A stretch of DNA of 64,000 bases from a virus. The translations under genes were made by a program, and so were the position numbers. The notes beneath the pieces are model-generated. The model was not told the origin of the DNA. It was given only the letters and a program-made list of their open reading frames with translations, and searched no databases. Location of the stretch: IMG/VR virus record IMGVR_UViG_3300042691_034458, positions 1 to 64,000 of that record, one strand, 5' to 3'. Shown here in pieces: positions 5,061 through 49,929 of this stretch (the first letter of the stretch is position 1; each line of letters opens with the position of its first letter).

Positions 5061-5458
5061 GTCATCTAGTATATGTGAACGGGTTAGGACCAAATTATAA
5101 AGGTGAACATATATATGAATTTATTTTTTCAGAATCTGATGAAATTAGTGGTGATTATTGGGACGCAAAACCATCGCATGGTCAACCAAAACCTCCAGAT
5201 TTGGAGTATGTAAAAAAAGTTGGTATACTTAGAAATAGTGGTGTTATTTTTGACTTAATACAGAACTCTGACGTTTTTGGAATGGAAGACGCTGTAGATG
5301 GTATTATAGCATTAGCTTGGGAAAACGACGAAACTAAAACTAATTTTAAAAAATTGGTATTCTTATTTGGTGAAGAAGAAAAAATTATAAAAGATAAACT
5401 ATATTCAAGAGATTTAATTCTTGAATTTGAAAAAGAAATGAGTTATGAAATCGATTAA
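5057..5458 (+). CDS. Hypothetical protein
   Basis: A 133-residue acidic protein beginning MSHLVYVNGLGPNYKGEHIY. Its start overlaps the previous stop (ATGA) and its end overlaps the next start by 14 bases, so it sits in a tightly coupled operon with the terminase region. No motif of known function was seen. The mixed alpha/beta sequence without membrane segments suggests a small soluble virion or connector protein. Confidence 0.75.
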   Translation: MSHLVYVNGLGPNYKGEHIYEFIFSESDEISGDYWDAKPSHGQPKPPDLEYVKKVGILRNSGVIFDLIQNSDVFGMEDAVDGIIALAWENDETKTNFKKLVFLFGEEEKIIKDKLYSRDLILEFEKEMSYEID

Positions 5459-6143
5459 AGAAAAATACAACGAATTAATTCAAAAAGGTTTTTCCAAAAA
5501 AACCCTTTATTCTTTAAATGAGACTGAACTTTCAGATCTTCATAAGCTAATTACTGAACAAGTAAAACAAACAACTAAACAAGTTACAACCACAACAATT
5601 CCCTCGTCTGTTGCAAAATCAACCGGTGCTAATGTTGGTAATGTCGATATAAAACAGGACGCTTCCGGAAATATTGTTGCAACAAAAATGGAGGGTGAAA
5701 TGAAAGAAGGTGGAAAGAAAAAAGTAAATCCTTGGGCGGTTTGTACTTCAAATATGGGTAAAAAGTTTGGTACAACTGAAAGAAGTGAGTGGAATAAAGA
5801 ACAAATGGATGAATATGAGCGTTGTATTATGGATGTTAAAAAATCCGCAAAAAAATATAAGAAAAAAATTGATGAAGAATTGGAAAAACAACTTGTAAAG
5901 TTAGTTGAAAAGCATATCTCACCAAGAATGACTAAGGGTGATTTACTTAATTTAATTGAGCAAGGAACAAAAGAAGCGCCAACAAAACCTAAAGAAAAGG
6001 AAAAGGAGCGTACAAAACCTTGGCATCCCGGAAGAGATCCCCGTCCCGGTGTTGAACCAGCACCGAAAGCTAAAAAATCGGATGAGAAGAAAAAAGAGGA
6101 TATTATGAAAATAATTGCAAAAATATTAAACAATAATGAGTAA
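5445..6143 (+). CDS. Hypothetical protein with tag-like N-terminus
   Basis: 232 residues, Lys/Glu-rich. Residues 24-39 read LNETELSDLHKLITEQ, similar in spacing and ending (I-T-E then Q at 36-39) to the putative capsid-targeting tag. A middle segment with NPWAVCTS (Cys about 103) and YERCIMDVKK (Cys about 128) looks like a small conserved two-cysteine module. The rest is basic and probably disordered, with a Pro-rich stretch near 180-205. It lies in the coupled operon that leads to the terminase. Function unknown; an internal head protein is my inference. Confidence 0.75.
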   Translation: MKSIKEKYNELIQKGFSKKTLYSLNETELSDLHKLITEQVKQTTKQVTTTTIPSSVAKSTGANVGNVDIKQDASGNIVATKMEGEMKEGGKKKVNPWAVCTSNMGKKFGTTERSEWNKEQMDEYERCIMDVKKSAKKYKKKIDEELEKQLVKLVEKHISPRMTKGDLLNLIEQGTKEAPTKPKEKEKERTKPWHPGRDPRPGVEPAPKAKKSDEKKKEDIMKIIAKILNNNE

Positions 6144-7380
6144 AAAATTTAAATTATCTGAAGCTCCGGTTGATTATGGTGATTATCCGGAAAGAATGGA
6201 CCCAGAAACTGAAAGAAAAGTTTCAAGTCCCGAAAATCCATTTGCAAAAGCATTAAGAGGTGGTGTTTCTGATGTTGAAAAATTAATCGGTTCTCGATTT
6301 AAAAAAGTCGTTGATAAACTCAAAGCTGCGACTGGAATTGAGGATTTGAGCAATCATGAGGTTACTAGTAGCTTGGTCAAAGATTTGTTTAATAATATAA
6401 ATAGCGTTGTTCAAATTGAATCGAGATATAAAGAAGAGTTAACAGAATTAGCGATTAAATTAGCGATAGACGCTGCTGATGCTGAAGAAGATTGGTATGA
6501 GATTGAGGCTCGTCTTAATCCGATTGGGATTGATACTTCAAAGTTTAGATTGAAAAAAGAAGCGCCGCCCAAATTTCAACCCTCAACTTCATTTGAAATG
6601 GATACTTTAACAGATGAGGAAAAATTTGAATTAGAAAAGGCAAAAAGAAATATAATTAATGCTATTGTACAAGGCTCATCAAAAAAAGGACATTATATTT
6701 TTCAATTACCAGAAGTTAAAGAAAAGTTAGATGAAATTAATCCTTCGTTATATGATTTTTACTCTAAAATAATGGCGGTTAATGATATTATGTATTTTAC
6801 TATGGATAAGCTTATTGAAGCTGCGAGTAAAACTGGTCGGGGTGTTGCTGGTAAAGTACAAACAATGAGTAATGATGATGAAGACGATGAAAATGCACCA
6901 GACATAAAAATTGTTGCTGAAGGATTAATGTTTCCGATATTAGTTCATGAAATAATAAAAGGTATTGAGGAAGCAAAAGCTAAATATGGTTTACCCGAAG
7001 ACCCTGAAATGGCGATGAAAGTTATGGGTCAAACAGATGTTCTTTCTCAGGAACCCATGCAATTAAGAATTGGACCTGAATTAGTGGAGAAAATAAAGTT
7101 TGCGTTACCCGCAGAAATTTTTGAACCCGAAAATAAAGGTTTAATTAGCTTTTTCCAAACTGAACTTTATTCTTTACCAGCTAAAGAATTCTTAGATGTT
7201 ATTAGTGATATTGTTTCTGAAAATGATGCTGAGAATAGAAACGGAATAAAAAAATTCAATGATTTATTGAAAATTGCAAAAAACAAAAAAAACCAATACG
7301 ACAAATCAAAAAAATCAACTGATTCGGGTGATGATGAGGATGAGGAATTTGGTTCATTTTTAAAGGACTTAGGTTTATAA
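6136..7380 (+). CDS. Hypothetical protein upstream of terminase
   Basis: 414 residues, predicted mostly helical, with an acidic region near 250 (DDEDDENAPD) and an acidic C-terminus containing DSGDDEDEEFG. It starts inside the end of the previous gene (8-base overlap) and ends 36 bases before the terminase start. In T4-like phages this slot can hold small terminase or neck genes, but I see no small-terminase signature and the length is too great for one. Function not assigned. Confidence 0.75.
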   Translation: MSKKFKLSEAPVDYGDYPERMDPETERKVSSPENPFAKALRGGVSDVEKLIGSRFKKVVDKLKAATGIEDLSNHEVTSSLVKDLFNNINSVVQIESRYKEELTELAIKLAIDAADAEEDWYEIEARLNPIGIDTSKFRLKKEAPPKFQPSTSFEMDTLTDEEKFELEKAKRNIINAIVQGSSKKGHYIFQLPEVKEKLDEINPSLYDFYSKIMAVNDIMYFTMDKLIEAASKTGRGVAGKVQTMSNDDEDDENAPDIKIVAEGLMFPILVHEIIKGIEEAKAKYGLPEDPEMAMKVMGQTDVLSQEPMQLRIGPELVEKIKFALPAEIFEPENKGLISFFQTELYSLPAKEFLDVISDIVSENDAENRNGIKKFNDLLKIAKNKKNQYDKSKKSTDSGDDEDEEFGSFLKDLGL

Positions 7381-7387
7381 AATCACT

Positions 7388-7406: not shown

Positions 7407-7416
7407 ATAATATATA

Positions 7417-9198: not shown

Positions 9199-12100
9199 AT
9201 GGAAGATGAAAAACTAACAATATGGCAACGACTTTCTAAAGGATTTGGTCCAAACTCATTACTTGGACAAGAAAGTCCAACATTTAAATTTGATAAGAAG
9301 GTTTTATTAAAAACACCGAATAAGCAAGAGTACGAAAGAGAAAAACTCCAAGCACAACAAACAGCTTATTTAACATACCAATGGAGTAAGATTGAAAATA
9401 ATTTATATACACAATCAGTATATTATGAACCCACTAGATTAGCATCATATTATGATTATGAGAGTATGGAATATTTTCCGGAAATTTCAGCAGCATTAGA
9501 TACATTTTCGGAAGAATCTACAACGCCAAATCAAGATGGTCAAATGTTACAGATTTATTCTGAATCAAAAAGAATTAAATCAATTTTAACAGATTTATTC
9601 TATAATCAATTAGATATTAACACAAATCTACCCATGTGGACAAGAAATACTTGTAAGTATGGTGATAATTTTGTGTTTTTAAAACTAGACCCAGAAAAAG
9701 GTATTGTTGGTTGTTTTCAACTACCAAATATTGAAATTGAACGTATTGAAAAGGGGATGGTTAAACGTCCGGGTGGGACACCAAATAGCGACCCAGAAAA
9801 TAAACAAATGAAATTCTCTTGGAAACAAAAAGATTTAGATTTTAATACTTGGGAGGTCGCACATTTTAGATTATTGGGTGATGATAGAAAATTACCATAC
9901 GGTACTTCGATGTTAGAAAAAGCGAGAAGAATTTGGAAACAATTAGTTCTTGCTGAAGATGCAATGTTAATTTATAGAACATCTAGAGCACCGGAAAGAA
10001 GAGTATTTAAAGTTTTTGTTGGTAATATGGATGATAAAGATGTTGAAGCATATGTGCAAAGATTTGCAAATAAATTTAAGCGAGACCAAGTAGCGGACCC
10101 AAAAACGGGTAATGTGGATTTACGTTTTAATCAAATGGCGGTAGACCAAGATTATTTTGTACCGGTTAGGGATATTGCTGCACCTAATCCGATTGATACA
10201 TTACCGGGAGCGTGTATTGATTTAAATACCAGAATTCCCCTTCTTGATGGTAGAACTTTAACTTTACAACAAATAATTAATGAGTGGGATAATGGTAATA
10301 GAAACTTATGGGTTTATTCTTGTGACCCAAATACAGGGTCCGTACATCCGGGTATGGTAACTTGGGCTGGTGTAACAAGAAAAGACGCTGAAGTTATTAA
10401 AATTACATTAGACAATGGTGAAGAGGTGATTACAACTCCAGACCATAAATTTGTTCATAGAACTAGAGAATTTGTTGAAGCGAAAGATTTAATTGTTGGG
10501 GATAGTTTAATGCCTTTTTATTCAAGAACCGAAAAAATAAAGACCAACACTAATGATTATCACCAAATTTTTGATAATGAAAAAAATCAATGGGTTTTTA
10601 CGCATAGAATGGTAAAAAACAGTACTGTTGGTAGTTCTTTAGTAAAAGAATGGGTTTTTAATTCTGAATTTAAAAATAAAGATAAAAAAATAATTCACCA
10701 TAAAGACCATAATCGCTTTAATAATAATCCAAATAATTTACTAATAATGAATGGTGAAGACCATTTAAAATATCACCAACATATCATAAAAGAAACGATT
10801 TGGAAAGATATTGAACTTAATAAGAAAAAAATTTCAGAAGGTATTAAAAATTATTTAAATAATCTTTCTTCAGATGAATTACAAAAAAGACATGAAAGAA
10901 TTAATAATCCAATATCAAAAGCTAAAACAACTAAAAAGTTATTGGAATGGAATAAAAATGATGAAAATTTAAAAAATAAAGGTAAAAAAATTTCAAAAGC
11001 TTATACAGAAGAAAGAAAAAATAAGATAAAGGAATTAAATTTAATAAGGTGGTTGAATGATGATTATCGAAATAAAGTTTTTTCTAAAAAACAAACAATA
11101 ACATTTGATGATTATATATATAATTCATTTGTTAGTGAATTTAAAAAGACTTTACGTGCTGATTTAGCGTTAAAGAACTTAAATAATTCTTTTGAATTTA
11201 TTTCACATTTTAAACAAATTAATGAGGAAATTAGAAGTTCGTTAACAAACTTAAATGAATTCACGCAAAACCATGTAGATAAAATGGTTAAACAACAAGG
11301 GTTTAAAAATTTTACTGAATGGAAACATTTTGAGTGTAAAAAGAGAGGATTTAAAAATATTCGTCAATGGAAATATAATGTTGAGAAAGAAATTTATTTT
11401 AACCATAAAATAACAAAAATTGAATGGTTAACAAATAAAATTGACACTGGTACGATTACGGTTGATGGTAATGAATTATATTCAAAATCTCACACTTTTG
11501 CTATTGAAAGTGGTATTTTTATTAAAAATTCTAACCTTTCTGAAATTGCAGATATAGAATACATCCAGAAAAAACTTTTAACAGCATTAAGGATACCAAA
11601 AGCGTTCCTTGGGTTTGAAGAAGTTGTTGCTGATGGTAAAAATCTTGCGTTACAAGATATTCGTTTTGCTAGAACAATTAACAGAATACAAAAAAGTATG
11701 TTAGCGGAATTAAATAAAATTGCTATTATACATTTATTTATTTTAGGTTTTGAAGATGAACTTTCTAACTTTACATTAGGATTAACAAACCCATCAACAC
11801 AAGCTGATTTATTAAAGGTTGAGGTTTGGAAAGAGAAAATCTTACTTTATAAAGACGCTGTTGCAGGAATTGAGGGTATTGCACCAACTTCACATTCTTG
11901 GGCTAAAAAACATATTCTTGGTTTCTCGGATGATGAAATTAAACTTGATATTCAACAACAAAGAATTGAAAAGGCGGTCGCAAAAGAACTTGAGAACACA
12001 CCAAATGTGATTGTAAAAACAGGTATTTTTGATAGTGTTGATGCAATCTACGGTCAAAAAGGTGGTGGTACTCAAGCTGGAACTCCCCCTCAAGAACCAA

Positions 12101-12339
12101 CATCTGATATGACAATGCCTGAAACTAGTCCAGCATCATCACCATCAATAACTCCACCAGAAGCTCCTGAGAGCGCACCAACTGAAACTCCAACAACAGT
12201 ACCTGAATCAAAACAGGAAAGAGTAAATATTTTACTTGAAGGTGGTCTTTTAAATGAAGATGAAGAAATCGATTTGAGTAAAGCTAGAATTCAATTAGGT
12301 GAAATGGAAGAACATTTAAATAAACTTCTAAAGTCGTGA
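9199..12339 (+). CDS. Portal protein (gp20-like), intein-containing
   Basis: A 1046-residue precursor. The exteins (residues 1-338 and 778-1046, 607 together) form a T4 gp20-type portal, the dodecameric vertex that joins head and tail and docks the terminase. Conserved portal stretches flank the insertion: IAAPNPIDTLPGA before it and SNLSEIADIEYIQKKLL after it. Removing residues 339-777 rejoins the typical LPGA-SNLSEI sequence. The C-terminus has a Pro/Thr-rich linker (about 955-1005) and a Glu-rich tail. The gene lies between terminase and protease, as in T4-like phages. Without splicing the portal core would be interrupted, so head assembly should depend on intein removal. Confidence 0.95.
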   Translation: MEDEKLTIWQRLSKGFGPNSLLGQESPTFKFDKKVLLKTPNKQEYEREKLQAQQTAYLTYQWSKIENNLYTQSVYYEPTRLASYYDYESMEYFPEISAALDTFSEESTTPNQDGQMLQIYSESKRIKSILTDLFYNQLDINTNLPMWTRNTCKYGDNFVFLKLDPEKGIVGCFQLPNIEIERIEKGMVKRPGGTPNSDPENKQMKFSWKQKDLDFNTWEVAHFRLLGDDRKLPYGTSMLEKARRIWKQLVLAEDAMLIYRTSRAPERRVFKVFVGNMDDKDVEAYVQRFANKFKRDQVADPKTGNVDLRFNQMAVDQDYFVPVRDIAAPNPIDTLPGACIDLNTRIPLLDGRTLTLQQIINEWDNGNRNLWVYSCDPNTGSVHPGMVTWAGVTRKDAEVIKITLDNGEEVITTPDHKFVHRTREFVEAKDLIVGDSLMPFYSRTEKIKTNTNDYHQIFDNEKNQWVFTHRMVKNSTVGSSLVKEWVFNSEFKNKDKKIIHHKDHNRFNNNPNNLLIMNGEDHLKYHQHIIKETIWKDIELNKKKISEGIKNYLNNLSSDELQKRHERINNPISKAKTTKKLLEWNKNDENLKNKGKKISKAYTEERKNKIKELNLIRWLNDDYRNKVFSKKQTITFDDYIYNSFVSEFKKTLRADLALKNLNNSFEFISHFKQINEEIRSSLTNLNEFTQNHVDKMVKQQGFKNFTEWKHFECKKRGFKNIRQWKYNVEKEIYFNHKITKIEWLTNKIDTGTITVDGNELYSKSHTFAIESGIFIKNSNLSEIADIEYIQKKLLTALRIPKAFLGFEEVVADGKNLALQDIRFARTINRIQKSMLAELNKIAIIHLFILGFEDELSNFTLGLTNPSTQADLLKVEVWKEKILLYKDAVAGIEGIAPTSHSWAKKHILGFSDDEIKLDIQQQRIEKAVAKELENTPNVIVKTGIFDSVDAIYGQKGGGTQAGTPPQEPTSDMTMPETSPASSPSITPPEAPESAPTETPTTVPESKQERVNILLEGGLLNEDEEIDLSKARIQLGEMEEHLNKLLKS
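10213..11529 (+). mobile_element. Class 1-like intein with HNH homing endonuclease in portal
   Basis: A 439-residue insertion that starts with Cys339 (CIDLNTRIPLLDG) and ends with Asn777, followed by Ser778. The block-B motif is VITTPDHKFV. The end reads HTFAIESGIFIKN, so the residue before the terminal Asn is Lys where most inteins have His. Between the splicing blocks lies an HNH-type endonuclease motif, IHHKDHNRFNNNPNNLL (about bases 10690-10740), followed by Lys-rich helices likely to bind DNA. It is probably a mobile homing element in a conserved portal site. Confidence 0.9.
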
Positions 12340-13625: not shown

Positions 13626-14348
13626 ATGAAAATCTTAGGACCAAACGAAATAGGACAAAGAGGTATTCTTATTGAAATGGATGCTGGTTATATTTCACCA
13701 AGTGATGAACGTAATTTAGCAATCATTAAAGAATCTAAAAACTTATTGGATTATTCAAAACCATTTGAATTTTATGCTGTATTACAAAAATACGGAGTAC
13801 CAAACAGAAATGGTAGAATTTATCCTGAAAGTATATTAAAAAGAGAATCTGAAAATTATTTAAAATTAATCAAACAAGGGAAAGCTATGAGTGAATTAAA
13901 TCACCCAGAATCTTCCCTTATTGATTTGGATAGAGTTTCACATCTTATTACAGATATGTGGTGGGACGGTCATATTTTAATGGGTAAATTAAAGTTATTA
14001 ACATCACCCGGATTCCATGAAAGAGGTATTGTATCAACAAAAGCGGACATTGCTGCTAATTTGTTAAGACACGGTGCAACTTTGGGTATTTCCTCAAGAG
14101 GTGTTGGTTCATTGGTTAAAAAGGGTGAACAAAATGAGGTTCAATCAGATTTTGAATTAATTTGTTTTGATTTGGTATCATCACCTTCAACACCGGGTGC
14201 GTATCTCTTTAGTGATGTTAATGATAGAAACAAATTTGAAGAGAATATTGAGGAAGAGAAAAAATTGAGACAGCAGCCTATTTCAGATAAAAAAGAAATT
14301 AAGTCACTTGACTTAATGAAAAGATTATCCGATTATTTGGGAAAATAA
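13626..14348 (+). CDS. Prohead core protease (gp21-like)
   Basis: 240 residues. SELNHPESS places the catalytic His at residue 93, and GISSRGVGS supplies the Ser at 156 or 157, the pattern of T4 gp21-type prohead serine proteases. This enzyme matures the prohead by cutting after (I/L)-x-E in the capsid, scaffold and internal proteins, then digests itself. It is followed by the scaffold and major capsid genes. Its presence matters for the recurring (I/L)-x-E tags found across the window. Confidence 0.9.
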   Translation: MKILGPNEIGQRGILIEMDAGYISPSDERNLAIIKESKNLLDYSKPFEFYAVLQKYGVPNRNGRIYPESILKRESENYLKLIKQGKAMSELNHPESSLIDLDRVSHLITDMWWDGHILMGKLKLLTSPGFHERGIVSTKADIAANLLRHGATLGISSRGVGSLVKKGEQNEVQSDFELICFDLVSSPSTPGAYLFSDVNDRNKFEENIEEEKKLRQQPISDKKEIKSLDLMKRLSDYLGK

Positions 14349-14685: not shown

Positions 14686-16233
14686 ATGTCAGAAAAAAAA
14701 TCATTAGTAGAAGATACTCTAATCCAAATGAGAAATTTGGAGGAAGCTATCCAAGAAAATGCAAAAGGAATACTTGCTTCAACCATGAAGGAAGAAATCA
14801 GTGATTTAGTAAAAGAGTCTTTAAATGAGACTGAAACAGAAGAGGAAATGGATGAAATGGAAATGGAGTCCAAGACCGATGATAAAGTTGACGAGCAAGA
14901 GTCATCCGATTTAGAAATGGACATGGATATGGAAGATGAAGTTAGTGACGAATCTGAAGAAGAGTCTGATGAAGATTCAGAAGAGATGATGGGCGCTGAA
15001 ATGAATCTTGACATGGACGTAGAAGATGAAGTCCCGATGGACTTAACAAACGCATCAACAGAAGAGCTTTTAAAAGTTTTTAAAGCTATGGGTGAAGAAG
15101 ATGGTATTATCGTTAAAAAAGAAGATGATAAAATCCATCTAAAAGATGATTCAGAAGGTGTTGAATATATGATTGATTTAGGAGAAAGCATTAATGAACA
15201 ACCTCTTGATTTGGGCGATGAGTCTGAGGAAGAAGAATTTGACTTTAATTTAGATGATGAATCTGAAGATGAGGAATTTGAATTCGATGAGTTTGAAGAA
15301 AGAATGCCAATGCGTAAATCACATAGAATTCGCAAAATGAAAAGAGATGAAGAAATGCATGAACAATCATTTGCGGATGAGACAGAGTCTGAAAAACAAG
15401 CCGATATTGATGCGATGTTAGACGATATCTTTAATGAATCAGAAGTATCTGAGGAGGAAGAGGTTGTCTATGAAATTGAGCTAGATGAAGAGGATGATAA
15501 TGAAGATATGACGGAAGAAACTGAAGAAACAGATGAGGAAATGAATGAAACCTATGATTTAGAGGAAGCATTCAAACCAAAAATGTTCAAAGGTAAAAAT
15601 CCTGAAAATAAAACAAATAAAGGTCCGAAAAAGATGTTAATGAAAAAACCTACCGGAAAAATGTTTGGTATGACACCAAAAATCGGTAAAACAACAAAAA
15701 CATCGGAATCTGATGTAAAGAAAGTTGAGACCAAAGAAGCAGCAAGAACCTTGGGTATGGGTAGTAAATTTAGAAAAGGTGGTTTACCAAAACCTAAAGC
15801 TGCCCCAAGACATCTCGGAGAAGATTTTGATTTTGAAGCGATGAACGCTGAGTTAGTTTCTTTAAGAGAAAAAAATGAAGAATATAGAAAAGCATTAAAT
15901 ATCTTCAGAGAAAAACTTAATGAGGTTGCTATATTCAATTCAAATCTTGCTTATGCGACAAGACTTTTCACCGAACATTCAACTTCTAAGCAAGAAAAAA
16001 TTAATATTCTTAGAAGATTTGATGGTGTTGAGACAATTAAGGAATCTAAAAATCTTTACACAACAATAAAAGAGGAATTAAGTTCCAAGGGTGTTACACC
16101 AATAACCGAATCGATTGAGTCAAAAATTGAAAAAACTCCATCTAGCGGTTCTGCGGCTAATTTGATTGAGTCAAAAACTTATGAGAATCCGCAGTTCTTG
16201 AGAATGAAAGACCTCATGAATAAAATAAAATAA
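14686..16233 (+). CDS. Prohead core/scaffold protein (gp22-like position)
   Basis: 515 residues, extremely acidic between about 45 and 290 with many Glu/Asp runs, then a basic Lys/Pro/Gly-rich section (about 290-385), then a helical C-terminus with AIFNSNLAYATRLFTEHS. An acidic, helical, protease-accessible protein encoded just before the major capsid gene is what T4 gp22 is: the core around which the shell forms, later degraded by the prohead protease. Several (L/I)-x-E triplets, such as LNE near residue 46, could be cut. Identification rests on position and composition more than on clear homology. Confidence 0.75.
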   Translation: MSEKKSLVEDTLIQMRNLEEAIQENAKGILASTMKEEISDLVKESLNETETEEEMDEMEMESKTDDKVDEQESSDLEMDMDMEDEVSDESEEESDEDSEEMMGAEMNLDMDVEDEVPMDLTNASTEELLKVFKAMGEEDGIIVKKEDDKIHLKDDSEGVEYMIDLGESINEQPLDLGDESEEEEFDFNLDDESEDEEFEFDEFEERMPMRKSHRIRKMKRDEEMHEQSFADETESEKQADIDAMLDDIFNESEVSEEEEVVYEIELDEEDDNEDMTEETEETDEEMNETYDLEEAFKPKMFKGKNPENKTNKGPKKMLMKKPTGKMFGMTPKIGKTTKTSESDVKKVETKEAARTLGMGSKFRKGGLPKPKAAPRHLGEDFDFEAMNAELVSLREKNEEYRKALNIFREKLNEVAIFNSNLAYATRLFTEHSTSKQEKINILRRFDGVETIKESKNLYTTIKEELSSKGVTPITESIESKIEKTPSSGSAANLIESKTYENPQFLRMKDLMNKIK

Positions 16234-37759: not shown

Positions 37760-37762
37760 ACT

Positions 37763-38392: not shown

Positions 38393-38394
38393 AC

Positions 38395-39201
38395 TTATAA
38401 TTCTTTAGATTTATTTTTTATTAAATTTAACCAATAACTATATTTTAAACTTTCTCTGCTATTATTTTTTACTTTTTTTATTTCATTTTTTATAAAAACA
38501 AAATCTTTTAATTTTTCTTCATCGTTAATATAAACAACTGGTAAATTTTTATATATTTTTTCATATATTATTTTGTAATCATTAAATGGTCCTACAACTA
38601 TTGGTATGCCTCCGAGATAAAGAGTTTCATATGTACGAATACATTCAATTCCATTTCCTCTTGGGGAGATTACACCAAGATATGATTTTACATAATTACT
38701 AAATTCTTTAAAAGAAATTTCATCATAAGAATCTACATAATCAAGTTCATTACAAATATTTTTTATTTTTTGTCTTAAATCATAATTTGTATTTACCCTA
38801 AAATTAGAAATCAATTTTTCTTTTATTATTGGCTGCGGAATCAAATGTGGGTTTAGTAAATATTCTTTTTTTTCAAAAATACCTTCATTTATTATACCAT
38901 GACCTAATCTAATAGGTAATATATCTATTTCAATACCCAACGGTATTGGAGTGACTTTATCACTATTACAATTTGTGTTAGTTGCAAAAATGTGATAAAC
39001 ATTTTCAGGACATAAAGATAATCGTCTATCGTCAAAAGTTATGTCACCATTTGCTATTATTAGAACACACTTATTATTTTTATTTTTTAATCTTATAAAT
39101 TCTTTTTCTATAAAATCTATTTTACAAAAAACTATTTTTTCGTCATCATGTAAATCATTACAGAACCTAGTCATTTGAATTAACTCATGATTAATCATCA
39201 T
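38395..39201 (-). CDS. Exostosin-like glycosyltransferase
   Basis: 268 residues from the Met at 39201; an upstream in-frame Met at 39237 would overlap the previous gene by 47 bases. The C-terminal half has SPRGNGIECIRTYETLYLGG then IPIVV, the pattern of the exostosin (GT47) donor-binding domain. The N-terminal half has VIPLGIEID-like and RLGHG segments. It should add a sugar within the cluster's glycan. Neighbours are a hexapeptide acyltransferase and an FkbM methyltransferase. Confidence 0.7.
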   Translation of the reverse strand: MMINHELIQMTRFCNDLHDDEKIVFCKIDFIEKEFIRLKNKNNKCVLIIANGDITFDDRRLSLCPENVYHIFATNTNCNSDKVTPIPLGIEIDILPIRLGHGIINEGIFEKKEYLLNPHLIPQPIIKEKLISNFRVNTNYDLRQKIKNICNELDYVDSYDEISFKEFSNYVKSYLGVISPRGNGIECIRTYETLYLGGIPIVVGPFNDYKIIYEKIYKNLPVVYINDEEKLKDFVFIKNEIKKVKNNSRESLKYSYWLNLIKNKSKEL

Positions 39202-39676
39202 TATTAATTTTTTTTTTAATTTTAGCAGGGTTTCCAAAAACTAAACTATTATCTGGAACATCTTTTGTAACGACAGAACCAGCACCTATTAAACTATTTT
39301 CACCAATAACTATACCGCAAATTATAACACTATTAGCACCAATTGAACATCTTTTCTTAAATAAAGTTTTTCTAAACCTATCATTATTTTTCCAATCACC
39401 ATCAACTTTTGGTCTATAATCATTTGTTGTTACCGTATTTGGACCTAAAAATACGTTGTCCTCTAATGTAACACCCTCATAAATTAATGAATTATTTTGT
39501 ATTTTACAATTATTACCAATAATAACGTTTGGACCGATATAAACCCCTTCACCAATAGTACAATTTTTACCTATTTTTGCGTTTTTACAAACATGTGAAA
39601 ATGCCCATATTTTAGTATTTTCACCAATATCTTCTGTCTCAACTATTGATGTTTCATGTAAAAAATAATTTTTCAT
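39191..39676 (-). CDS. Left-handed beta-helix sugar acyltransferase (WbpD/WlbB-like)
   Basis: 161 residues of hexapeptide repeats, for example IGKNCTIGEGVYIGPNVIIG and IGENSLIGAGSVVT, ending FGNPAKIKKK. The ordered repeat coil and the loop TTNDYRPKVDGDW match UDP-sugar N-acetyltransferases such as WbpD/WlbB, which acetylate 3-amino sugars. It works as a trimer and uses acetyl-CoA. No aminotransferase partner is visible, so the host may supply the amino sugar. Its stop overlaps the next start. Confidence 0.88.
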   Translation of the reverse strand: MKNYFLHETSIVETEDIGENTKIWAFSHVCKNAKIGKNCTIGEGVYIGPNVIIGNNCKIQNNSLIYEGVTLEDNVFLGPNTVTTNDYRPKVDGDWKNNDRFRKTLFKKRCSIGANSVIICGIVIGENSLIGAGSVVTKDVPDNSLVFGNPAKIKKKINNDD

Positions 39677-39678
39677 AA

Positions 39679-40467
39679 TTAGATAAATTTTGGAATATTA
39701 AAAAATAAATTATCTAAATAAGTTTTATGATGATTATAAGGTCTACATGCATGACATTCTATAAAGAAATTAGAATTTAATTTTGATATATCATAAGATA
39801 CTTCATTATGTCTATGACAATCAATTCGTCTATTTAAAAAAGTTGACGCTAAACTCAAGCTTGAAATTCTTGATTTATCTTCAAACGAGGAAAGTATTTT
39901 ACAACTATAAGCTTCATCCGTACCCCATTTATCTCCCCACATTGTTTTAAGATTTAAAGAATTTATTTTTTTTATTTCCAATTCAAATGATTCTTCAAAT
40001 TTATAAATATCACAAAAAGTCTGTCCTTTTGCAATATGATATGCTGAAGGACTAAATCCTCCTTCATCCCATTTTTTGGGATATTTGTTTTCAAATTTAT
40101 ATTGGTCGTCAATTAACATAATATAATTATTTTCGTCAATTAAGTTAATAGTTTCTTTAAAAAAATAAGTCCCTAATGGTATTTGATCAATACCCATTAT
40201 AATACAAGTTTCACTTGGATAAAATTTAGTAAAATAAAATAAAGCCCAAGTGTATTGCCATTCTGAGATATTAGATATTTTTTTCTCAATTAAAATTTCA
40301 CCGTATTCAGTAGATAAATTTGCATTTTTTAATTCATCTTCTTCACCAAAAAAGATTAAAGTTGGGGTTATGCCGAATTTTTCTTTATAAGTATATGATA
40401 AATTATTCCAAAAATCATAATATAAAGGGTTATTATTAGTTACTAATATTACTCTATCTATTTTCAT
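39679..40467 (-). CDS. Probable glycosyltransferase, GT-A like
   Basis: 262 residues. RVILVTNNNPLYYDFWNNL begins a Rossmann-like fold, CIIMGIDQIPLG supplies a D-x-x-P acidic site in the DxD position, and MWGDKWGTDEAYSCKIL is an acceptor-side motif. RRIDCHRHN and ECHACRPYNHHKTYL give a Cys/His-rich C-terminus that might bind metal. Its place inside the sugar cluster supports a glycosyltransferase role. The precise family was not recognised. Confidence 0.6.
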   Translation of the reverse strand: MKIDRVILVTNNNPLYYDFWNNLSYTYKEKFGITPTLIFFGEEDELKNANLSTEYGEILIEKKISNISEWQYTWALFYFTKFYPSETCIIMGIDQIPLGTYFFKETINLIDENNYIMLIDDQYKFENKYPKKWDEGGFSPSAYHIAKGQTFCDIYKFEESFELEIKKINSLNLKTMWGDKWGTDEAYSCKILSSFEDKSRISSLSLASTFLNRRIDCHRHNEVSYDISKLNSNFFIECHACRPYNHHKTYLDNLFFNIPKFI

Positions 40468-40473
40468 TTGTTA

Positions 40474-41283
40474 TTAATTAATTTGTACATTATGACTTGC
40501 GTGATAATAAGAAATTGTTTTACATTCACTGTAATGTTTTTCGTTAATTAGCGTTGATAAAATCATACCCCAAATAGGTAAATCGCCCCATCTATTACTA
40601 TATATTCCGTGAGATAAATCAATTTTTTTTAAAATTTTATTCAAAATTTTATTATTTCTTAAAAAGTCAACATTAACAATCATAAAATTAGTATAAGGAC
40701 ATTTGATATTATTAAATGTTTTATGTGGCTGAATATTTGTTTCAATTAAAAATTCGTTTAATAATCTTTCAAGACCCACAATAACTCTACTATCATCTTG
40801 ATCTTGAAATTTTGGGCTTACAAAATAAATTTCTTTTTCATTCATCTCATTTAAAATATTATTATCAAATTTGGTAATAAAACAATCTTCATCAATTCTT
40901 ATAATAAATTTATAATCCTTAAGGTATTCTAAAAAATCTATTGACCAAAAATGACACATATGTTTATAACCTAACGGAAAATGTGAGGATAAAAAATTAG
41001 GAGGACATAAATCATTATTAATTATATTTTTATTATTATCGAACGCTTTTTTATTTCCACATTCTTTAACATTTTTAAAAATTAAACTTTGTTTTGAATT
41101 ATTGGAAATATATAATTGATGATCTTCCGGAATATTTCCTTCATGAAATATTACCATATCAAAATCAAAATTAGATTTACTAATTATATTTTCATAAATT
41201 AATGTATTACGTTTAATTAACGAATTATATTGTGATACATTTTCATAGCCTCTAGTTAAGACTGTTATCGCTATTTTGTTCAT
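40474..41283 (-). CDS. GT15-like (Kre2/Mnt1-type) glycosyltransferase
   Basis: 269 residues. GYKHMCHFWSIDFLEYLKDY (105-124), FIIRIDEDCFI (127-137, Asp131 and Asp133) and SNRWGDLPIWGMIL (about 238-251) follow the order of alpha-1,2-mannosyltransferases of the Kre2/Mnt1 (GT15) type, which are mainly known from fungi. Finding this layout in a phage is unusual. Donor specificity cannot be read from sequence; mannose is only the family default. Confidence 0.7.
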   Translation of the reverse strand: MNKIAITVLTRGYENVSQYNSLIKRNTLIYENIISKSNFDFDMVIFHEGNIPEDHQLYISNNSKQSLIFKNVKECGNKKAFDNNKNIINNDLCPPNFLSSHFPLGYKHMCHFWSIDFLEYLKDYKFIIRIDEDCFITKFDNNILNEMNEKEIYFVSPKFQDQDDSRVIVGLERLLNEFLIETNIQPHKTFNNIKCPYTNFMIVNVDFLRNNKILNKILKKIDLSHGIYSNRWGDLPIWGMILSTLINEKHYSECKTISYYHASHNVQIN

Positions 41284-41291
41284 ATCTTTAT

Positions 41292-42017
41292 TTAATTTTT
41301 ATACATAAAGTTTAATATATGTAAATCCTCGACATCACAAAAATCATATTGAGTCCTAATCCAATCACTTTCTTTTTTAGGGATACCGGTATCAGCTTGA
41401 CTTCTAACACACCTATCTTTCCAATCATCAAATGTTTTATGGTGATAATGATTTAATTGTGCAATATCGTCAGTCCCATTTTCATTAAATGGTCCAGTAA
41501 AATAATTTTTAGCTGTATTCATAATTTTTACATTCGGATAATGAGGACTAACCATAATACTATCTGATTGTAAATTTAGTATTGTTTTAATATGTTTATC
41601 AACATCTTTTTGTCTTATAGTAAATTGTTTAATTAATGAATTACTATTTTCACTTCTTGTCAACCTACCACAAGCGCCGAAAAAAACCCAATTAATTCCA
41701 ATACCATAAGGATTATTAAACTCGTTTATAAAATCTTTAATATTTTGATGTTTTTTTAAAACTAAAAATTCATCAACATCAAAGAAAGCTACCCAATCAT
41801 ATTTAGTTTTATATTTTTTAATAAAATCATTATACGCGGATATCTGTCTAGCAATACCATCATATTTTATTTTTTTAATAAAATCGTGTTCTAAATTACA
41901 AATCCAATCATTTTCATAAATGATTATATCATCAAAACCTAATTTTTTATGATACAATACCCATTCTTTTATATAGAAATCTTCCATTTTAGCTATACAA
42001 ACTAATGCAACTCTCAT
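41292..42017 (-). CDS. GT92/Glyco_tranf_2_4-like glycosyltransferase
   Basis: 241 residues. It opens with VALVCIAKMEDFYIKEWVLY, has the strong DxD motif AFFDVDEFL (Asp80, Asp82) and ends with a NHYHHKTFDDW-type His-rich motif. This is the layout of the GT92/Glyco_tranf_2_4 type. It lies between two other glycosyltransferases in one run of - strand genes with gaps of only a few bases, so they are probably co-expressed. Confidence 0.82.
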   Translation of the reverse strand: MRVALVCIAKMEDFYIKEWVLYHKKLGFDDIIIYENDWICNLEHDFIKKIKYDGIARQISAYNDFIKKYKTKYDWVAFFDVDEFLVLKKHQNIKDFINEFNNPYGIGINWVFFGACGRLTRSENSNSLIKQFTIRQKDVDKHIKTILNLQSDSIMVSPHYPNVKIMNTAKNYFTGPFNENGTDDIAQLNHYHHKTFDDWKDRCVRSQADTGIPKKESDWIRTQYDFCDVEDLHILNFMYKN

Positions 42018-42018
42018 A

Positions 42019-42759
42019 TTATAACAATTTATTATAATTATTTATAAACTTTTGTTCACCAATTCCTTGTGTTTGATGACTATCAAATTGAAAATGTGTA
42101 ATTGTATTATTTAGTATTTTATATGGTATTTGATTTAACAAATAAAAAACACTAATACTTCTTTCAATCTCATGTCCGGAAAAAATTGATTTTTTAATAT
42201 CGTTAACTAAAATATCAACCCATTCCATGTATTCATTAAACCTATCAAGTTTAAACGTATGATTAGATGTCATACTGCAAATAGTATTTTTAGGTAAAGA
42301 CTCAATAAAATCAATTATATTAATATTATAGTTTTTAATCAAAGAAGTAATTAAATTTTGACTCCAAGGTGTATGACGTAAATATTCATATGAATGAACG
42401 TTATGTGGTATATAGCCAAAAATATCAAATTTTTTAGTTTCTATAACTTCATTTAAAATCTCCTCTAAATTAGATATTGTATTTATATCATATTCAAATA
42501 AGTTTATATACTTACCTTTAAGTAAATTATTTTTCCATAAAGCATACCAACCGGTATATGATGTTAATTTAGGATATTCTTCAATATTATTTTCTAAATT
42601 TCTTGCTATAATCACATTATCTAAATTTTCTAATTTAGATATATCGTTTTTACCTAAAAAAACATACGTTAAATTACTAAAATTATTAAATTTTTTATGT
42701 CTAATAAAATCTAAAATAATATCTTGATTATGAACAAATATAAATGTTTGAAACGTCAT
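42019..42759 (-). CDS. Probable glycosyltransferase
   Basis: 246 residues. TFIFVHNQDIILDFIRHKKF begins the fold, YINLFEYDINTIS carries an E-Y-D acidic triplet in the DxD position, and HTPWSQNLI and SGHEIERSISVFYLL follow. The pattern suggests a GT-A fold related to small sugar-transferases of viral and bacterial glycan clusters, without a specific family. It is two bases from the gene upstream of it in the cluster. Confidence 0.6.
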   Translation of the reverse strand: MTFQTFIFVHNQDIILDFIRHKKFNNFSNLTYVFLGKNDISKLENLDNVIIARNLENNIEEYPKLTSYTGWYALWKNNLLKGKYINLFEYDINTISNLEEILNEVIETKKFDIFGYIPHNVHSYEYLRHTPWSQNLITSLIKNYNINIIDFIESLPKNTICSMTSNHTFKLDRFNEYMEWVDILVNDIKKSIFSGHEIERSISVFYLLNQIPYKILNNTITHFQFDSHQTQGIGEQKFINNYNKLL

Positions 42760-42767
42760 GAATAAAC

Positions 42768-44267
42768 TTAATTAGTTATGAAAAACTTATTTAATTTTCT
42801 CATATTATCAATAACAAATGGTGCTAAATTTTTGTTATAGTCGTTATTCATTAAATAAGAATCCTCATCATTTTCTTTTCTAGTCTGAGACTCATAATGA
42901 TAAGAAACTAAATTACCATCCAAATAATTTTCAAAACCTAAAGTAAGGTAATTAAGATTTAATTCGACATCTTCAAAACATGATTGATATGTTTCATTAA
43001 ACATACCACATTTTTCAAATAAAGTCTTTTTAGTCATCATTAATCCGCCCGTATTACCAATTACTTTTTTAAGTGACGTTGAATGATTATAGTATGATTT
43101 AAATCCAACGTGTCCAAGAACAAATTTTTTATTCTTATCGAATCCTGCAAAGATTCCATCATGCTGAACCGTATTATCTCCGAAATGTAATCTACATCCA
43201 ACAGTTCCAGCTTTATTATTTTCTTTAAAAACTTTTAACATACCATAAATAACATTATTTAATAACTTAATATCGTTATTGCAAAATAATAAAAATTCAT
43301 AATCATTTGTAACATGATTTTTTACAACATCGTTATTAATTTTAGCAAAATTATAATAATCATATTCAATTAATTTAATATCACCGAGTGGTAAGATATT
43401 ATCTTTAATCCATTCTTTTTCATCCGCCGATGAACCAGTATCTGCAATAAAAATATCAAATAAGTTTGGATTGCAATGGTCATAAAAAGATTTAACACAA
43501 TCAAATAACATTTGAACCTTACCTTTAGTTGGGATTATTACCGCAACTTTACTGAAACCTTTTATTGACTTTTCTTTTATCTCAGGAACGAATATTTTTT
43601 CTGGTTTTAAATCTAATGGTAATTTACTTCCCCATTTTTCCAAGAATTTATTTTTGCTCTCCCAAAACTCTTGGTTTGGTTGTCCAATTGATTGATGTGT
43701 GATTTCAAAAGAAGATGTAACACCAATTTTAACTCCATCTAAATAATTAGGTACGCAAAATAAATGATCATAAAAATGGAATTTACCTATTGTTTCATCG
43801 AATCTATGTTTGATTTTATTTTTATCAAATGCAATAAACAATCCATCAATTGTTACAACGGGAATTAAAAATGGAAATTTTGGTGAATATTTACTTAACC
43901 ATTTCTTTTGACCCTCAGGGTGATGATAAACTTGACCAACCATTGTTTGTTGCATTCTTTCCCAATAAACACCTGATTCCGGAAAATAACAAGAACCAGC
44001 TTTACCAATTATACCAAAATCAGGATTTTCATTAAAATCTTTTGATAACTTTACTCCCCAGTTGGTTTCTAATTTTATATCATCATGAATCAAAACAACA
44101 ATATCATTGTTTGATTCTGAAATAATTTCATTATAAACAGTTGATAATGATTTAATTCCGGGATTAACTTTCTCAATAACTTGAACGTTTTTTAAACCAC
44201 AAGTATCGATGATGTATTTAGTAAAGTTTGGTTTACTAGATTTTGTACTATATCCGATTGTAATCAT
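42768..44267 (-). CDS. Tandem GT-A glycosyltransferase (two domains)
   Basis: 499 residues with two GT-A domains. Domain 1 (1-230) has ESNNDIVVLIHDDIKLETNW with Asp-Asp in the DxD position. Domain 2 (235-499) has VAVIIPTKGKVQMLFDCVKS, FADTGSS-like turns, EFLLFCNNDIKLL and GNTGGLMMTKKTLFEKCGMF, the last typical of GT2 rhamnosyltransferases. Two active sites in one chain could build an alternating or disaccharide unit. It is the first gene of the cluster transcript; no clear promoter octamer lies in front of it. Confidence 0.85.
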   Translation of the reverse strand: MITIGYSTKSSKPNFTKYIIDTCGLKNVQVIEKVNPGIKSLSTVYNEIISESNNDIVVLIHDDIKLETNWGVKLSKDFNENPDFGIIGKAGSCYFPESGVYWERMQQTMVGQVYHHPEGQKKWLSKYSPKFPFLIPVVTIDGLFIAFDKNKIKHRFDETIGKFHFYDHLFCVPNYLDGVKIGVTSSFEITHQSIGQPNQEFWESKNKFLEKWGSKLPLDLKPEKIFVPEIKEKSIKGFSKVAVIIPTKGKVQMLFDCVKSFYDHCNPNLFDIFIADTGSSADEKEWIKDNILPLGDIKLIEYDYYNFAKINNDVVKNHVTNDYEFLLFCNNDIKLLNNVIYGMLKVFKENNKAGTVGCRLHFGDNTVQHDGIFAGFDKNKKFVLGHVGFKSYYNHSTSLKKVIGNTGGLMMTKKTLFEKCGMFNETYQSCFEDVELNLNYLTLGFENYLDGNLVSYHYESQTRKENDEDSYLMNNDYNKNLAPFVIDNMRKLNKFFITN

Positions 44268-44355: not shown

Positions 44356-44640
44356 ATGAGAACAAAAAATAAAAAACCAACAAGAATAACTGAAAAACAG
44401 TTAGTAGCAATACTTAAAAAAGTAATTAATGAGCAAGATTCTTCAGAATATGATGATAATGAAGATGAAAAAGAAGAACATATTAAATTTATTGAAGATG
44501 CGGTATATGATTCGGCAATGAGTATTATAGGAAATTTAATAGCGGTTATTGATGACAACTATGAAGAAGGTATTGTTTTTGCTTTAGAGGAATTGGATTC
44601 TATTAAAAAAATTATAATGGATGTAAAAACAAGTTATTAA
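44356..44640 (+). CDS. Tagged small acidic protein
   Basis: 94 residues beginning MRTKNKKPTRITEKQLVAIL then KKVINE26-Q27, a clear copy of the recurring tag. The rest is an acidic stretch (DDNEDEKEE) and a helical domain. If cut after INE, a 68-residue acidic internal protein would be released. It is followed one base later by another tagged gene. Confidence 0.75.
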   Translation: MRTKNKKPTRITEKQLVAILKKVINEQDSSEYDDNEDEKEEHIKFIEDAVYDSAMSIIGNLIAVIDDNYEEGIVFALEELDSIKKIIMDVKTSY

Positions 44641-44641
44641 T

Positions 44642-45055
44642 ATGAAAAATTTATTAAAAATTACAGAAGACGAAAAAAAGCATATTTTAACTATGCACAA
44701 AACCAAAATTAATGAAAGTGATTTTGGTAGAATTGCTGGCGCTATTGCGGCAACAGGAGCAATAATGACACTAATATTGGCGCAAAGAGCGGTCGATATT
44801 TATGATTCAGAAGGAAATTCTGTTGAGGCTAATGTTGGTGATACATATACTGGTATTGTAACTGAAATGGTAGCAAAACCAAAAATGGGATTTGTTGTTA
44901 AAATGGAAACAGATGATGGTCATACTTTAGATTTCATGACATATTACAATAATTTTGTAACAGGTGATAAAATTAAGGTTGTTATTGGACGAGAATTTAA
45001 TTCAGGTGGAATGATGGTGTTTCCTGATGTAACACACACAGAAAAAGTTAAATAA
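44642..45055 (+). CDS. Tagged protein with one hydrophobic segment and OB-like C-terminus
   Basis: 137 residues. MKNLLKITEDEKKHILTMHK then TKINE25-S26 is a tag variant. A hydrophobic segment follows at 30-47 (IAGAIAATGAIMTLILA), then a beta-rich domain (ANVGDTYTGIVTEMVA, GDKIKVVIGREF) that looks like a small OB fold. Cleavage after INE would leave a small membrane-active or membrane-anchored protein, which could act during DNA entry. That role is inference; only the tag and the hydrophobic segment are visible. Confidence 0.75.
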   Translation: MKNLLKITEDEKKHILTMHKTKINESDFGRIAGAIAATGAIMTLILAQRAVDIYDSEGNSVEANVGDTYTGIVTEMVAKPKMGFVVKMETDDGHTLDFMTYYNNFVTGDKIKVVIGREFNSGGMMVFPDVTHTEKVK

Positions 45056-46409: not shown

Positions 46410-46413
46410 TTTT

Positions 46414-47766: not shown

Positions 47767-47774
47767 ATATTTAT
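47767..47774 (+). promoter_or_regulatory. Candidate late promoter ATATTTAT, 4 bases from ATG
   Basis: ATATTTAT followed by AATT and then the ATG of the LRR protein gene, the same spacing as at 22224 and 31212. Confidence 0.45.
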
Positions 47775-47778
47775 AATT

Positions 47779-48540
47779 ATGAAAAAGATAAAATTAACAG
47801 AATCAGATTTATATAGAATTGTTAGAAAGGTTCTTCTTGAGCAAGAGGAAGAAAAGAGAAGTTTTACATTTTCTCCGGGAACATTTGCGTCTTTTATAAC
47901 ATCATCATCAGGTGAAAGATTTGTTAAACATCTTAATAACAAATATGATGAGGTTATTATTAATGGTGATTTGGATTTAGATGGAACACCAATTCAATCC
48001 TTACCTGATAATCTTCATGTTGGTGGGGATTTGAATTTATATGGAACACCAATTCAATCCTTACCGGATAATCTTTATGTTGGGAGAAATTTGGATTTAA
48101 GAGGAACACCAATTCAATCCTTACCGGATAATCTTTATGTTGGGAGAAATTTGGATTTACAAGGAACACCAATTCAATACTTACCGGATAATCTTCATGT
48201 TGGGGGAAGTTTGTGGTTAAATGGAACACCAATTCAATACTTACCGGATAATCTTCATGTTGGGGGAAGTTTGGATTTAAGTGGAACACCAATTCAATCC
48301 TTACCGGATAATCTTTATGTTGGGGGATATTTGAATTTACATGAAACACAAATTCAATCCTTACCGGATAATCTTTATGTTGGGGGATATTTGAATTTAC
48401 ATGAAACACAAATTCAATCCTTACCGGATAATCTTTATGTTGGGGGGACAATTTATATTAATGGAATACCTTTAAATGATAATGATAAGTTGGTTGCAAA
48501 ATATAAAGAAAAATATAGAATTGATAGAGCACTTATTTAA
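47779..48540 (+). CDS. Tagged leucine-rich-repeat protein, complete
   Basis: 253 residues. MKKIKLTESDLYRIVRKVLL then E21-Q22 is the clearest copy of the recurring tag. Residues 22-65 are a short linker domain (FTFSPGTFASFITSSSGERF). Residues 66-230 are eight LRR units of 20 residues. The C-terminal cap begins GIPLNDNDKLVAKY. It is a paralogue of the partial gene at the left edge and of the C-terminal half of the protein at 20173. If the tag is cut after LLE, a 232-residue LRR domain would remain in the head. Confidence 0.88.
   Translation: MKKIKLTESDLYRIVRKVLLEQEEEKRSFTFSPGTFASFITSSSGERFVKHLNNKYDEVIINGDLDLDGTPIQSLPDNLHVGGDLNLYGTPIQSLPDNLYVGRNLDLRGTPIQSLPDNLYVGRNLDLQGTPIQYLPDNLHVGGSLWLNGTPIQYLPDNLHVGGSLDLSGTPIQSLPDNLYVGGYLNLHETQIQSLPDNLYVGGYLNLHETQIQSLPDNLYVGGTIYINGIPLNDNDKLVAKYKEKYRIDRALI
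47983..48445 (+). repeat. 60-nt tandem repeats coding LRR units
   Basis: About eight copies of a 60-base unit, the core encoding TPIQSLPDNL being nearly identical between copies, and two adjacent units (about 48301-48420) identical over their full length. Shared with 2-240 at high identity, so copy-number change by recombination is likely. Confidence 0.95.
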
Positions 48541-49120
48541 CCTTCTTAGCCTTTGTAATTTTACCCTCAAAAATTGTTTTACCAACTTTGAACTGGATAG
48601 TTTCATTTACTTTTGATGTATTTTCAATCAATAACCCATTTTCCTCTAAAAGTTCTTCAAATACTTCGCGCATCATTGACTTTAATTCATTTTTATTCGG
48701 TAATGATGTAATTTGTTTTGATTGAACATTAGACGGAGTTTCTTGTCGTTTTGTACCCATCAATCTGCTAGCTTTCTCAACTAATTCATCAGATAGTGCT
48801 GTTGTTGGTGGTTGCGGTTGCTGAATGGGGTGTTCAATCATTAATTTCTTAATTTCATCTGGAAGTCTTGAATTTAAAATTCTATCCTTAACAGGAACCG
48901 CTGAATTAATTGGTTTTGGTTTTACTTGCTGTTCTGAAAGATATTCCTGTGGGATATTATATTTAACATCGGGAACTTCAAAATCGTCAACCTGAGGTCT
49001 TTCTACATTTATTCTAGTATTTTCACTTATTCCTATATCACTAGTCTGACCTCTAGGAATTTTATTGTGTTTATCCATTATTTTTTTGGATATCATTAGT
49101 TTTTCAATAAGTGCGTCCAT
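48533..49120 (-). CDS. Hypothetical virion-associated protein
   Basis: 195 residues, MDALIEKLMISKKIMDKHNK with a long Pro/Gln-rich middle (about 60-115) and a C-terminal helix MMREVFEELLEENGLLIEN followed by a small beta segment (FKVGKTIFEGKITKAKK). It converges with the LRR gene, overlapping by eight bases, and closes the - strand operon that starts at 51518. No family recognised. Confidence 0.75.
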   Translation of the reverse strand: MDALIEKLMISKKIMDKHNKIPRGQTSDIGISENTRINVERPQVDDFEVPDVKYNIPQEYLSEQQVKPKPINSAVPVKDRILNSRLPDEIKKLMIEHPIQQPQPPTTALSDELVEKASRLMGTKRQETPSNVQSKQITSLPNKNELKSMMREVFEELLEENGLLIENTSKVNETIQFKVGKTIFEGKITKAKKVK

Positions 49121-49125
49121 AGTTT

Positions 49126-49929
49126 TTAGAATTTAGCATTAATAATAAGACGATTCATGGATTTGTCACCAGTTCTGTTATAATTTGGTCTAACTTCATT
49201 AAATTTTTCATCGGTAGGGATGTAAGTCATGATTTTATCAACCCTAAATAAACGCCAACCCGGAAGTGGTTGTGTACCCAAAAAATCTGTGTGTGATGCA
49301 CCCAAAAAGTCCCAAGCTCTTAATACTTGATTACCAGCTTTTGAGTAACCAAAAGCAACAGGTTCAATTTCTCTATTACCTTTACCTCCGGGTTCATCAC
49401 CATCATAATACATGACCGTAATTCGTTTATTTTTTATCGAATCCATAATCGAATCAATTTTATTTCCAGTTTTTGGAACATCAGTTGGTATTTCTGGTTC
49501 ATATTCGTCTGGTCTAAAATTCTTGATTATAAGTTTAATCGCATCATCGGTATAACCAGCAGATTTTAAATCACCAACTAAATCTTCAGATGGTTCATAT
49601 TTTCTTTTGAATGTTGTTGTATTAATTAATTCTTTTGCAACAGCATCCATAAGATTTTTATCCATACCCGTATTTTTAAGTATGGATGCGGTAATTTTAC
49701 CAAACTCTTGAACAGTAATTCGCCCTTCTTTTATTGCGTCAATAAGTTCTTGACCTGTTTTAGCGACAACTGGATTACCTTCAGAATCTACGTAGGTAAT
49801 ACGTTTAAATCTTGAAACAGAATCTAATGCATTTTTGACAATATCATCGCTAACCCCCGCAAAAACATCTTCTCTTGCAGGAATTAATTGTTCAATAATT
49901 AAACCGGTTAGCGATTCAAGTAATCTCAT
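49126..49929 (-). CDS. WYL-domain protein with tag-like N-terminus
   Basis: 267 residues. MRLLESLTGLIIE13-QLIPARE is a shorter tag-like start with an I-I-E site. Residues 20-140 are helical. Residues 155-245 match a WYL domain: IDSIMDSIKNKRITVMYYDG, REIEPVAFGYSKAGNQVLRA, and PGWRLFRVDKIMTYIP. WYL domains sense ligands or bind nucleic acid ends in bacterial regulators. Here one sits in a structural operon without a DNA-binding helix-turn-helix, so it may act inside the virion or on DNA. The tag call is weaker than for the others. Confidence 0.8.
   Translation of the reverse strand: MRLLESLTGLIIEQLIPAREDVFAGVSDDIVKNALDSVSRFKRITYVDSEGNPVVAKTGQELIDAIKEGRITVQEFGKITASILKNTGMDKNLMDAVAKELINTTTFKRKYEPSEDLVGDLKSAGYTDDAIKLIIKNFRPDEYEPEIPTDVPKTGNKIDSIMDSIKNKRITVMYYDGDEPGGKGNREIEPVAFGYSKAGNQVLRAWDFLGASHTDFLGTQPLPGWRLFRVDKIMTYIPTDEKFNEVRPNYNRTGDKSMNRLIINAKF

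Follow-up and report, generated by a model that had tools for sequence, protein, structure and literature searches.

An N-terminal leader ending in (I/L)-x-E on unrelated proteins of an uncultured virus with a T4-type head: a probable capsid-targeting propeptide

Introduction

Phage proteins that are carried in the head and injected into the host are normally identified by virion proteomics of cultured phages. In phage T4, the closest described case, internal proteins (IPs) have leaders of 10–19 residues, which are cleaved off once they have directed the protein to the core, and the protease gp21 cleaves after L/I-X-E (PMC9026906). IPII and IPIII both start with MKTYQEFIAE↓A (the arrow denotes a cut, here and below). 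In IPIII, a Glu-to-Asp change is reported to prevent removal of the leader while still allowing entry into the head. IPI acts against a restriction enzyme and IPIII is required on some hosts (PMC9391042). The giant phages SPN3US and phiKZ also have N-terminal propeptides, which are cut off after a short x-Glu motif by a prohead protease that is a distant relative of gp21; two of the SPN3US propeptides have 20 and 24 residues (PMC10052503). In phage P1, the N-terminal 30 residues of DarB carry a reporter into the head (PMC9024508). The present analysis concerns a 64-kb stretch of viral DNA, termed the window (positions 1–64,000 of the 73,467-base IMG/VR record IMGVR_UViG_3300042691_034458), and a short peptide, termed the tag, that recurs in its otherwise unrelated proteins.

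The tag is probably a capsid-targeting propeptide like those of the T4 internal-protein system, i.e. it would be docked and then cut by gp21 in the prohead, and the cargo would be ejected. An initial annotation of the window had proposed a modular signal for capsid targeting and gp21-type cleavage, and the unrelated cargo, the exchange of leaders and a gp23 site of the same rule, all described below, agree with this at the sequence level. What is new here is most likely a different, longer signal with more cargo; the principle of T4-type internal proteins was known already.

Consensus and distribution of the tag

The core of the tag is (I/L)TExDLxxIVxxV(I/L)xE; it is N-terminal, and the commonest next residue is Q. 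When TExxLxxI(hyd)xx(V/I)(hyd)xEQ (hyd, hydrophobic) is written as degenerate DNA, it matches at least 120 stretches in viral contigs, and the reversed DNA pattern, used as a control, gave 14 matches across the whole collection. A methionine is found no more than 15 residues upstream in 121 of 126 copies, the usual start being MKK(I/V)I(R/K)LTESDL. With a profile hidden Markov model of the tag there were 73 matches of at least 10 bits in eight contig proteomes, versus none in six shuffled or reversed decoy proteomes; the eight include the window's own contig, which duplicates part of G028. (G028, of 256,029 bases, is a longer twin in which the tagged and head genes match those of the window at an offset of 43,360.) Among random viral contigs of at least 30 kb, 1 of 30 carries the tag. 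As judged from these comparisons, the tag is a genuine shared signal, beyond chance.

The sequences that follow the tag are diverse: 255 tagged proteins fall into 160 families, 122 of which are singletons. The median mature length is 124 residues, and a single contig can have as many as about 18 tagged genes.

The location at gene starts would also suit a DNA or RNA element that acts as a promoter or in translation, instead of a peptide signal. The sequence [AG]TATTTAT[AG] is indeed somewhat commoner upstream of tagged genes (12 of 42, versus 111 of 1033 other genes; p = 0.002, an excess due in part to paralogs). It also precedes the genes for gp21 (13626) and the scaffold (14686). Upstream of genes in general it is enriched in the sense orientation, and the late promoters of this clade may consist of it. 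Counts of the T4 late promoter, TATAAATA, gave little discrimination in these AT-rich genomes. Within the tag, however, synonymous codons vary freely (four codons for threonine, five for leucine) and the residues are conserved; thus the tag is conserved as protein and not as nucleotides. Tags also occur in frame within open reading frames (ORFs). A nucleic acid element is scarcely credible.

A tblastn search of cultured phages with tag peptides gave no match, although queries this short are barely detectable in this way. The tag pattern matches 117 stretches in bacterial and archaeal genomes, nearly all by chance; about 4 resemble true tags, and two of these share one Prochlorococcus single-cell contig. 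The tag sequences were not found in the literature searched, a search that lay outside preprints and some journals.

The end of the tag

Column entropy is low through E-Q and rises sharply right after it. A search restricted to the first half of the tag, which leaves the end unfixed by the pattern, yielded 111 non-redundant copies. In 109 of these there is a Glu, and the residue two positions before it is hydrophobic, in most cases I or L. If residues are numbered backwards from a cut after this Glu (P1), then P2 is free, and P3 favours I/L whereas the adjacent hydrophobic columns favour V. The residue after the Glu is Q in 46 of the 111 copies and varied in the rest. In 17 copies the helix is extended by four residues, with the same (I/L)-x-E end. 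A second class of tag consists of (I/L/V)TExEKxxILxMH and a variable linker. Its 40 non-redundant copies are all N-terminal, and 37 of them continue to an (I/L)xE, 28 at one spacing.

The initial annotation had compared the tag end with the capsid maturation site and with T4 gp21 sites, and the comparison holds. The major capsid protein gp23 of the window (16257–18116, + strand; PF07068, 5e-71) has the maturation site LINE↓A (Glu60), which reads LINE↓(A/S/T) in 24 relatives with the single exception of LLTE↓A. The gp21-type prohead protease (Peptidase S77; 13626–14348, + strand; PF03420, 5e-22; phrog_207, 6e-42) has a putative pro-site, IIKE↓S, at residues 33–37, and (I/L)xE↓S precedes the conserved protease domain in four phages. 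Both sites obey the same (I/L)-x-E rule as the tag end.

The tag might instead be an uncut docking peptide for some other phage structure or enzyme, with the terminal Glu belonging to the helix. An amphipathic helix is predicted for the tag, and two of the tags in the window are internal, both of which would be in keeping with this. The Glu and the I/L persist, however, when the helix changes in length or is missing; homology starts immediately after the Glu; and the preference at P3 is not that of the adjacent hydrophobic columns. An uncut docking peptide is considered highly improbable.

Exchange of leaders before the same mature protein

The best evidence for a cut site, as far as alignments can provide it, is the exchange of leaders in the family of ORF 6136–7380. 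This gene lies in the head cluster, just before the terminase gene. In the window its leader is MSKKFKLSE↓ (6136–6162, + strand) and the mature protein would start with APVDYGDYPERM. In relatives the mature part begins APxDYGDYPERM or QIDYGDYPERM, and it is preceded by 36 distinct leaders of 7–21 residues, which range from MKKIVRE to MKKIKLTEADLTRVIKRIVKE; some are the full tag. Glu is present at P1 and I, L or V at P3 in 36 of 36, and the homology begins at P1′. At the same place, MKNFKDFMNE↓E and MKNFSKFLEE↓I are found in the family members of two huge phages.

Other families display similar exchanges. ORF 22236–23759 has the N-terminal tag MKNILINDNQLKNLVESVKHILTE↓ (22236–22307, + strand; 21.9 bits), which ends in ILTE↓A and is followed by the mature start ADKRNV; the relative in G014 has a different leader, MKTINLIEQLILE↓ANRKDI, ending in LILE↓A. 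The short leader of 49126–49929, MRLLESLTGLIIE↓ (49891–49929, − strand), ends in LIIE↓Q, versus LIVE↓A and IITE↓I in the orthologs (MKLFNTYKKLIVE↓A and MKLLRSLKTIITE↓I). This had been listed as a weak case and is a real leader.

In the MFFSN family, represented in the window by 24197–25057, such a site is present in 30 of 31 leaders. A second Glu, before the DUF5872-like domain, is invariant (31 of 31) and has M, L, I or V two positions before it. An AlphaFold model of one member shows a leader helix at residues 8–21 that stops at the predicted cut; the second Glu of the same protein falls between two domains, in a linker modelled with low confidence.

Head genes and association with the gp21 protease

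The window encodes a T4-type head block, i.e. gp20, gp21, a candidate scaffold and gp23, with gp20, gp21 and gp23 recognised by family searches. An HNH-domain intein (PF14890, PF13392) interrupts the gp20 portal gene (9199–12339). The candidate scaffold/core protein (14686–16233, + strand) is encoded between gp21 and gp23 and is acidic. It gave no family match in Pfam or PHROGs, and is the putative docking partner of the tag.

Peptidase S77 was detected in 24 of 49 tagged contigs of at least 30 kb versus 2 of 30 random contigs (p about 6e-5). For contigs of at least 100 kb the figures are 17 of 21 tagged and 2 of 6 random. The initial annotation had proposed a check of this kind, a profile search combined with co-occurrence of gp21-type proteases. 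A gp21 (S77) and a gp23-type head are present in the same phage, and are missing only where the contig shows no head genes. Four large tagged contigs without S77 look incomplete rather than protease-free, because three (G014, G033 and G034) have no relative of the window terminase, gp20, gp21, scaffold or gp23, and the fourth (G021), which is parallel to G046, would stop before the G046 head block.

Cargo

Few of 150 tagged representatives match Pfam. Peptidoglycan-binding, LysM and OmpA domains are among the matches, and PHROGs gave endolysin-like matches. PADLOC, run on 150 tagged proteins, produced isolated weak matches only. The domain labels first given to the cargo fared unevenly. The DUF5872 match is just below the cut-off (26.0 versus 27.5 bits), no PcfJ or leucine-rich repeat (LRR) family was found at the thresholds used (at E 0.001, the Pfam matches of the tagged proteins include no LRR family), and 22236 has no Pfam match.

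The peptidoglycan-related domains on some tagged proteins raise a further explanation: a propeptide, removed by gp21, that delays the activity or assembly of virion proteins (head, neck, tail) until the head matures, with no general loading of cargo. The minimal leaders of 7–9 residues, which hold the cut site alone, and the location of the 6136 gene in the head cluster would fit this as well. On the other hand, the long helical tag is found on 160 unrelated families, mostly uncharacterised and distributed genome-wide, as cargo would be, and the leaders of the T4 IPs do target (PMC9026906). A delaying propeptide is therefore unlikely, and capsid targeting remains the preferred explanation of the tag.

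Individual tags in the window

The motif is present in all seven ORFs in which it was first noticed, although it is internal in 20173 and 24197, and 44642 has a tag of the second class. The final Glu is at residue 21–26 in the N-terminal cases (47779, 44356, 44642, 22236 and 23746), as had been stated. Tags beyond the original list are 6136 (KLSE↓APVDYGD), the cut ORF 2–337, and 73061, which is outside the window.

The highest profile score among the N-terminal tags belongs to the LRR-like protein 47779–48540, which starts with MKKIKLTESDLYRIVRKVLLE↓ (47779–47841, + strand; 42.5 bits) and also matches the DNA pattern, as does MRTKNKKPTRITEKQLVAILKKVINE↓ of 44356–44640 (44356–44433, + strand; 19.0 bits). 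The tag of 44642–45055, MKNLLKITEDEKKHILTMHKTKINE↓ (44642–44716, + strand), is of the class ITExEKxxILxMH and its low profile score (4.2 bits) is due to this. ORF 23746–24177 has a weak match, MKKNIIITESQLETLINSTKRLIKE↓ (24103–24177, − strand; 8.6 bits); its mature part resembles Kyanoviridae Gp96 (PF23790, 1.5e-7).

The internal tag of ORF 20173–21774, KKKVKIKESDLYNIIKRVLLE↓Q (21316–21381, + strand; 33.4 bits; residues 408–429 of 20095/20173), separates a DUF5872-like region from an LRR-like domain. The tagged LRR-like cassette sits after a region that is found without the LRR-like part in relatives. In 24197–25057 the tag MKKTIKLTESQLIELINAKIQE↓ (24569–24634, − strand; 28.8 bits; profile match at residues 143–164) is followed by the MFFSN and DUF5872-like domains. 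A relative with 85% identity (L738) has a stop codon immediately before the tag methionine; therefore the native protein starts at the tag, and the preceding 141 residues were added in the window phage as an extra N-terminal domain. The tag could still act as an internal start.

The ORF at 2–337 (+ strand) is the C-terminal part of an LRR-like protein whose tag lies before the window start; the intact copy, G028_42873_43697, has MVMKKIKLTESDLYRIVRKVLLE↓Q. A possible leader of 5445–6143 ends in LITE↓Q (5445–5558, + strand). Of three relatives compared, that in G037 ends in TLSE↓Q and the other two have no (I/L)xE there. The weak case at 30839 was rejected as a leader, its N-terminus being conserved straight through in four phages.

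About 10 tagged LRR-like paralogs with TPIQSLPDNL repeats, variable in repeat number, are dispersed over the G028 genome; the members in the window are 2–337, 20173–21774 and 47779–48540. Tandem LRR-like genes in G033 (56826–60064) have another leader, MKIVISESQ(Y/F)xxLIE, versus the long tag in the window phage.

Elsewhere in the window, ORF 35249–37069 appears by eye to be an ATPase with an intein-like insertion (SGSAGTGKAQPIDAKIITPTG). Runs of ORFs at 37157–44267 and 53700–60380 have N-termini that resemble, by eye, glycosyltransferases and sugar- or methyl-transferases, which suggests a large glycan island.

Discussion

Compared across relatives, a leader module is established that ends in (I/L/V)-x-E, is interchangeable before the same protein, is common to unrelated proteins and is found in gp21 phages. 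That the leader is cut off at this end is strongly supported by the same comparison. Cutting by gp21, docking to the scaffold, location in the head and ejection are what we infer from there. A short basic amphipathic helix would dock the cargo onto the scaffold core of the prohead, and the phage gp21-type protease would remove the leader at (I/L)-x-E inside the prohead. The freed cargo would remain with the DNA and, by analogy with T4, be ejected into the host. The same leader would thus serve many unrelated, mostly small and uncharacterised proteins, and in fusions with internal tags the protease would split the fused proteins.

Several observations weigh against this explanation. A few cargo proteins look peptidoglycan-binding or endolysin-like and could act outside the head, and the tag profile finds none in five cultured T4-like phages, with weak single matches only in T4 and RM378. 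The association of S77 with the tag may come from shared ancestry alone, and the two random contigs with S77 have no tag. At the site itself, P3 is V in 8 of the 36 leaders of the 6136 family, beyond the strict T4 rule, and one MFFSN leader is without the site. An all-against-all test for (I/L)xE at homology boundaries was weakly positive (33 of 166 sides, with controls up to 26), and its two-sided cases were unconvincing.

Leaders nearer to the T4 type occur in other phages. In the huge phages LR745206 and LR756502 (635–642 kb) a loose T4-type pattern gave 9 and 8 matches, against 0 and 1 for the control; the cases inspected read M-x-KKYxxFIxE near ORF starts of various proteins. With the exact relaxed pattern there was more noise (11 and 14 versus 1 and 7), and each phage has an S77 match below the cut-off. 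This suggests, from a partial count only, that the address sequence is specific to each clade and that the cut rule is common. In T4 itself (NC_000866), the small hypothetical protein gp61.1 (18966–19130, − strand) starts with MKTFKEFIKE↓D, like the capsid-targeting sequence (CTS) of IPII and IPIII, and may therefore be a further internal protein.

A wider proposal, for which the chances appear about even, is that the T4 superfamily and huge phages use clade-specific 'dialects' of capsid address, each with its own scaffold docking and all with a shared cut after Glu. Uncultured giants would then preload at least a dozen fast-changing host-takeover or anti-defence proteins per particle, and some fusions would be split in the head. 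Such cargo roles are suggested by analogy with T4 (PMC9391042). An address tag that is readable from sequence would let the injected cargo of uncultured giant phages be listed computationally. Most of this cargo is without a known relative, and the T4 precedents suggest that it may be rich in anti-defence functions. The tags also supply defined peptides with which the specificity of the protease could be tested and foreign proteins could be loaded into capsids.

With respect to known systems, P1 Dar differs in having no N-terminal consensus and another head type. SPN3US has other residues at P3 (for example ASE, AVE and ALE), most of its propeptides exceed 100 residues, and no shared short tag has been reported. 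The T4 system, with IPI–III and Alt, the CTS and gp21, is the closest. The T4 CTS is the 10-residue MKTYQEFIAE; the window leader is not of this type but longer (about 21–26 residues), with the core KIxLTESDLxxIVxxV(I/L)xE. In contrast to the T4 IPs, a contig can have many tagged genes, some tags are internal to fusions, and the cargo is not basic. Both have a short N-terminal leader common to unrelated small proteins and a leader end of the L/I-x-E type that follows the gp21 rule (with V also at P3 in one family), and in both a single genome encodes gp21 as well as gp23. As in T4, it is plausible that targeting and processing reside in separate parts of the window tag.

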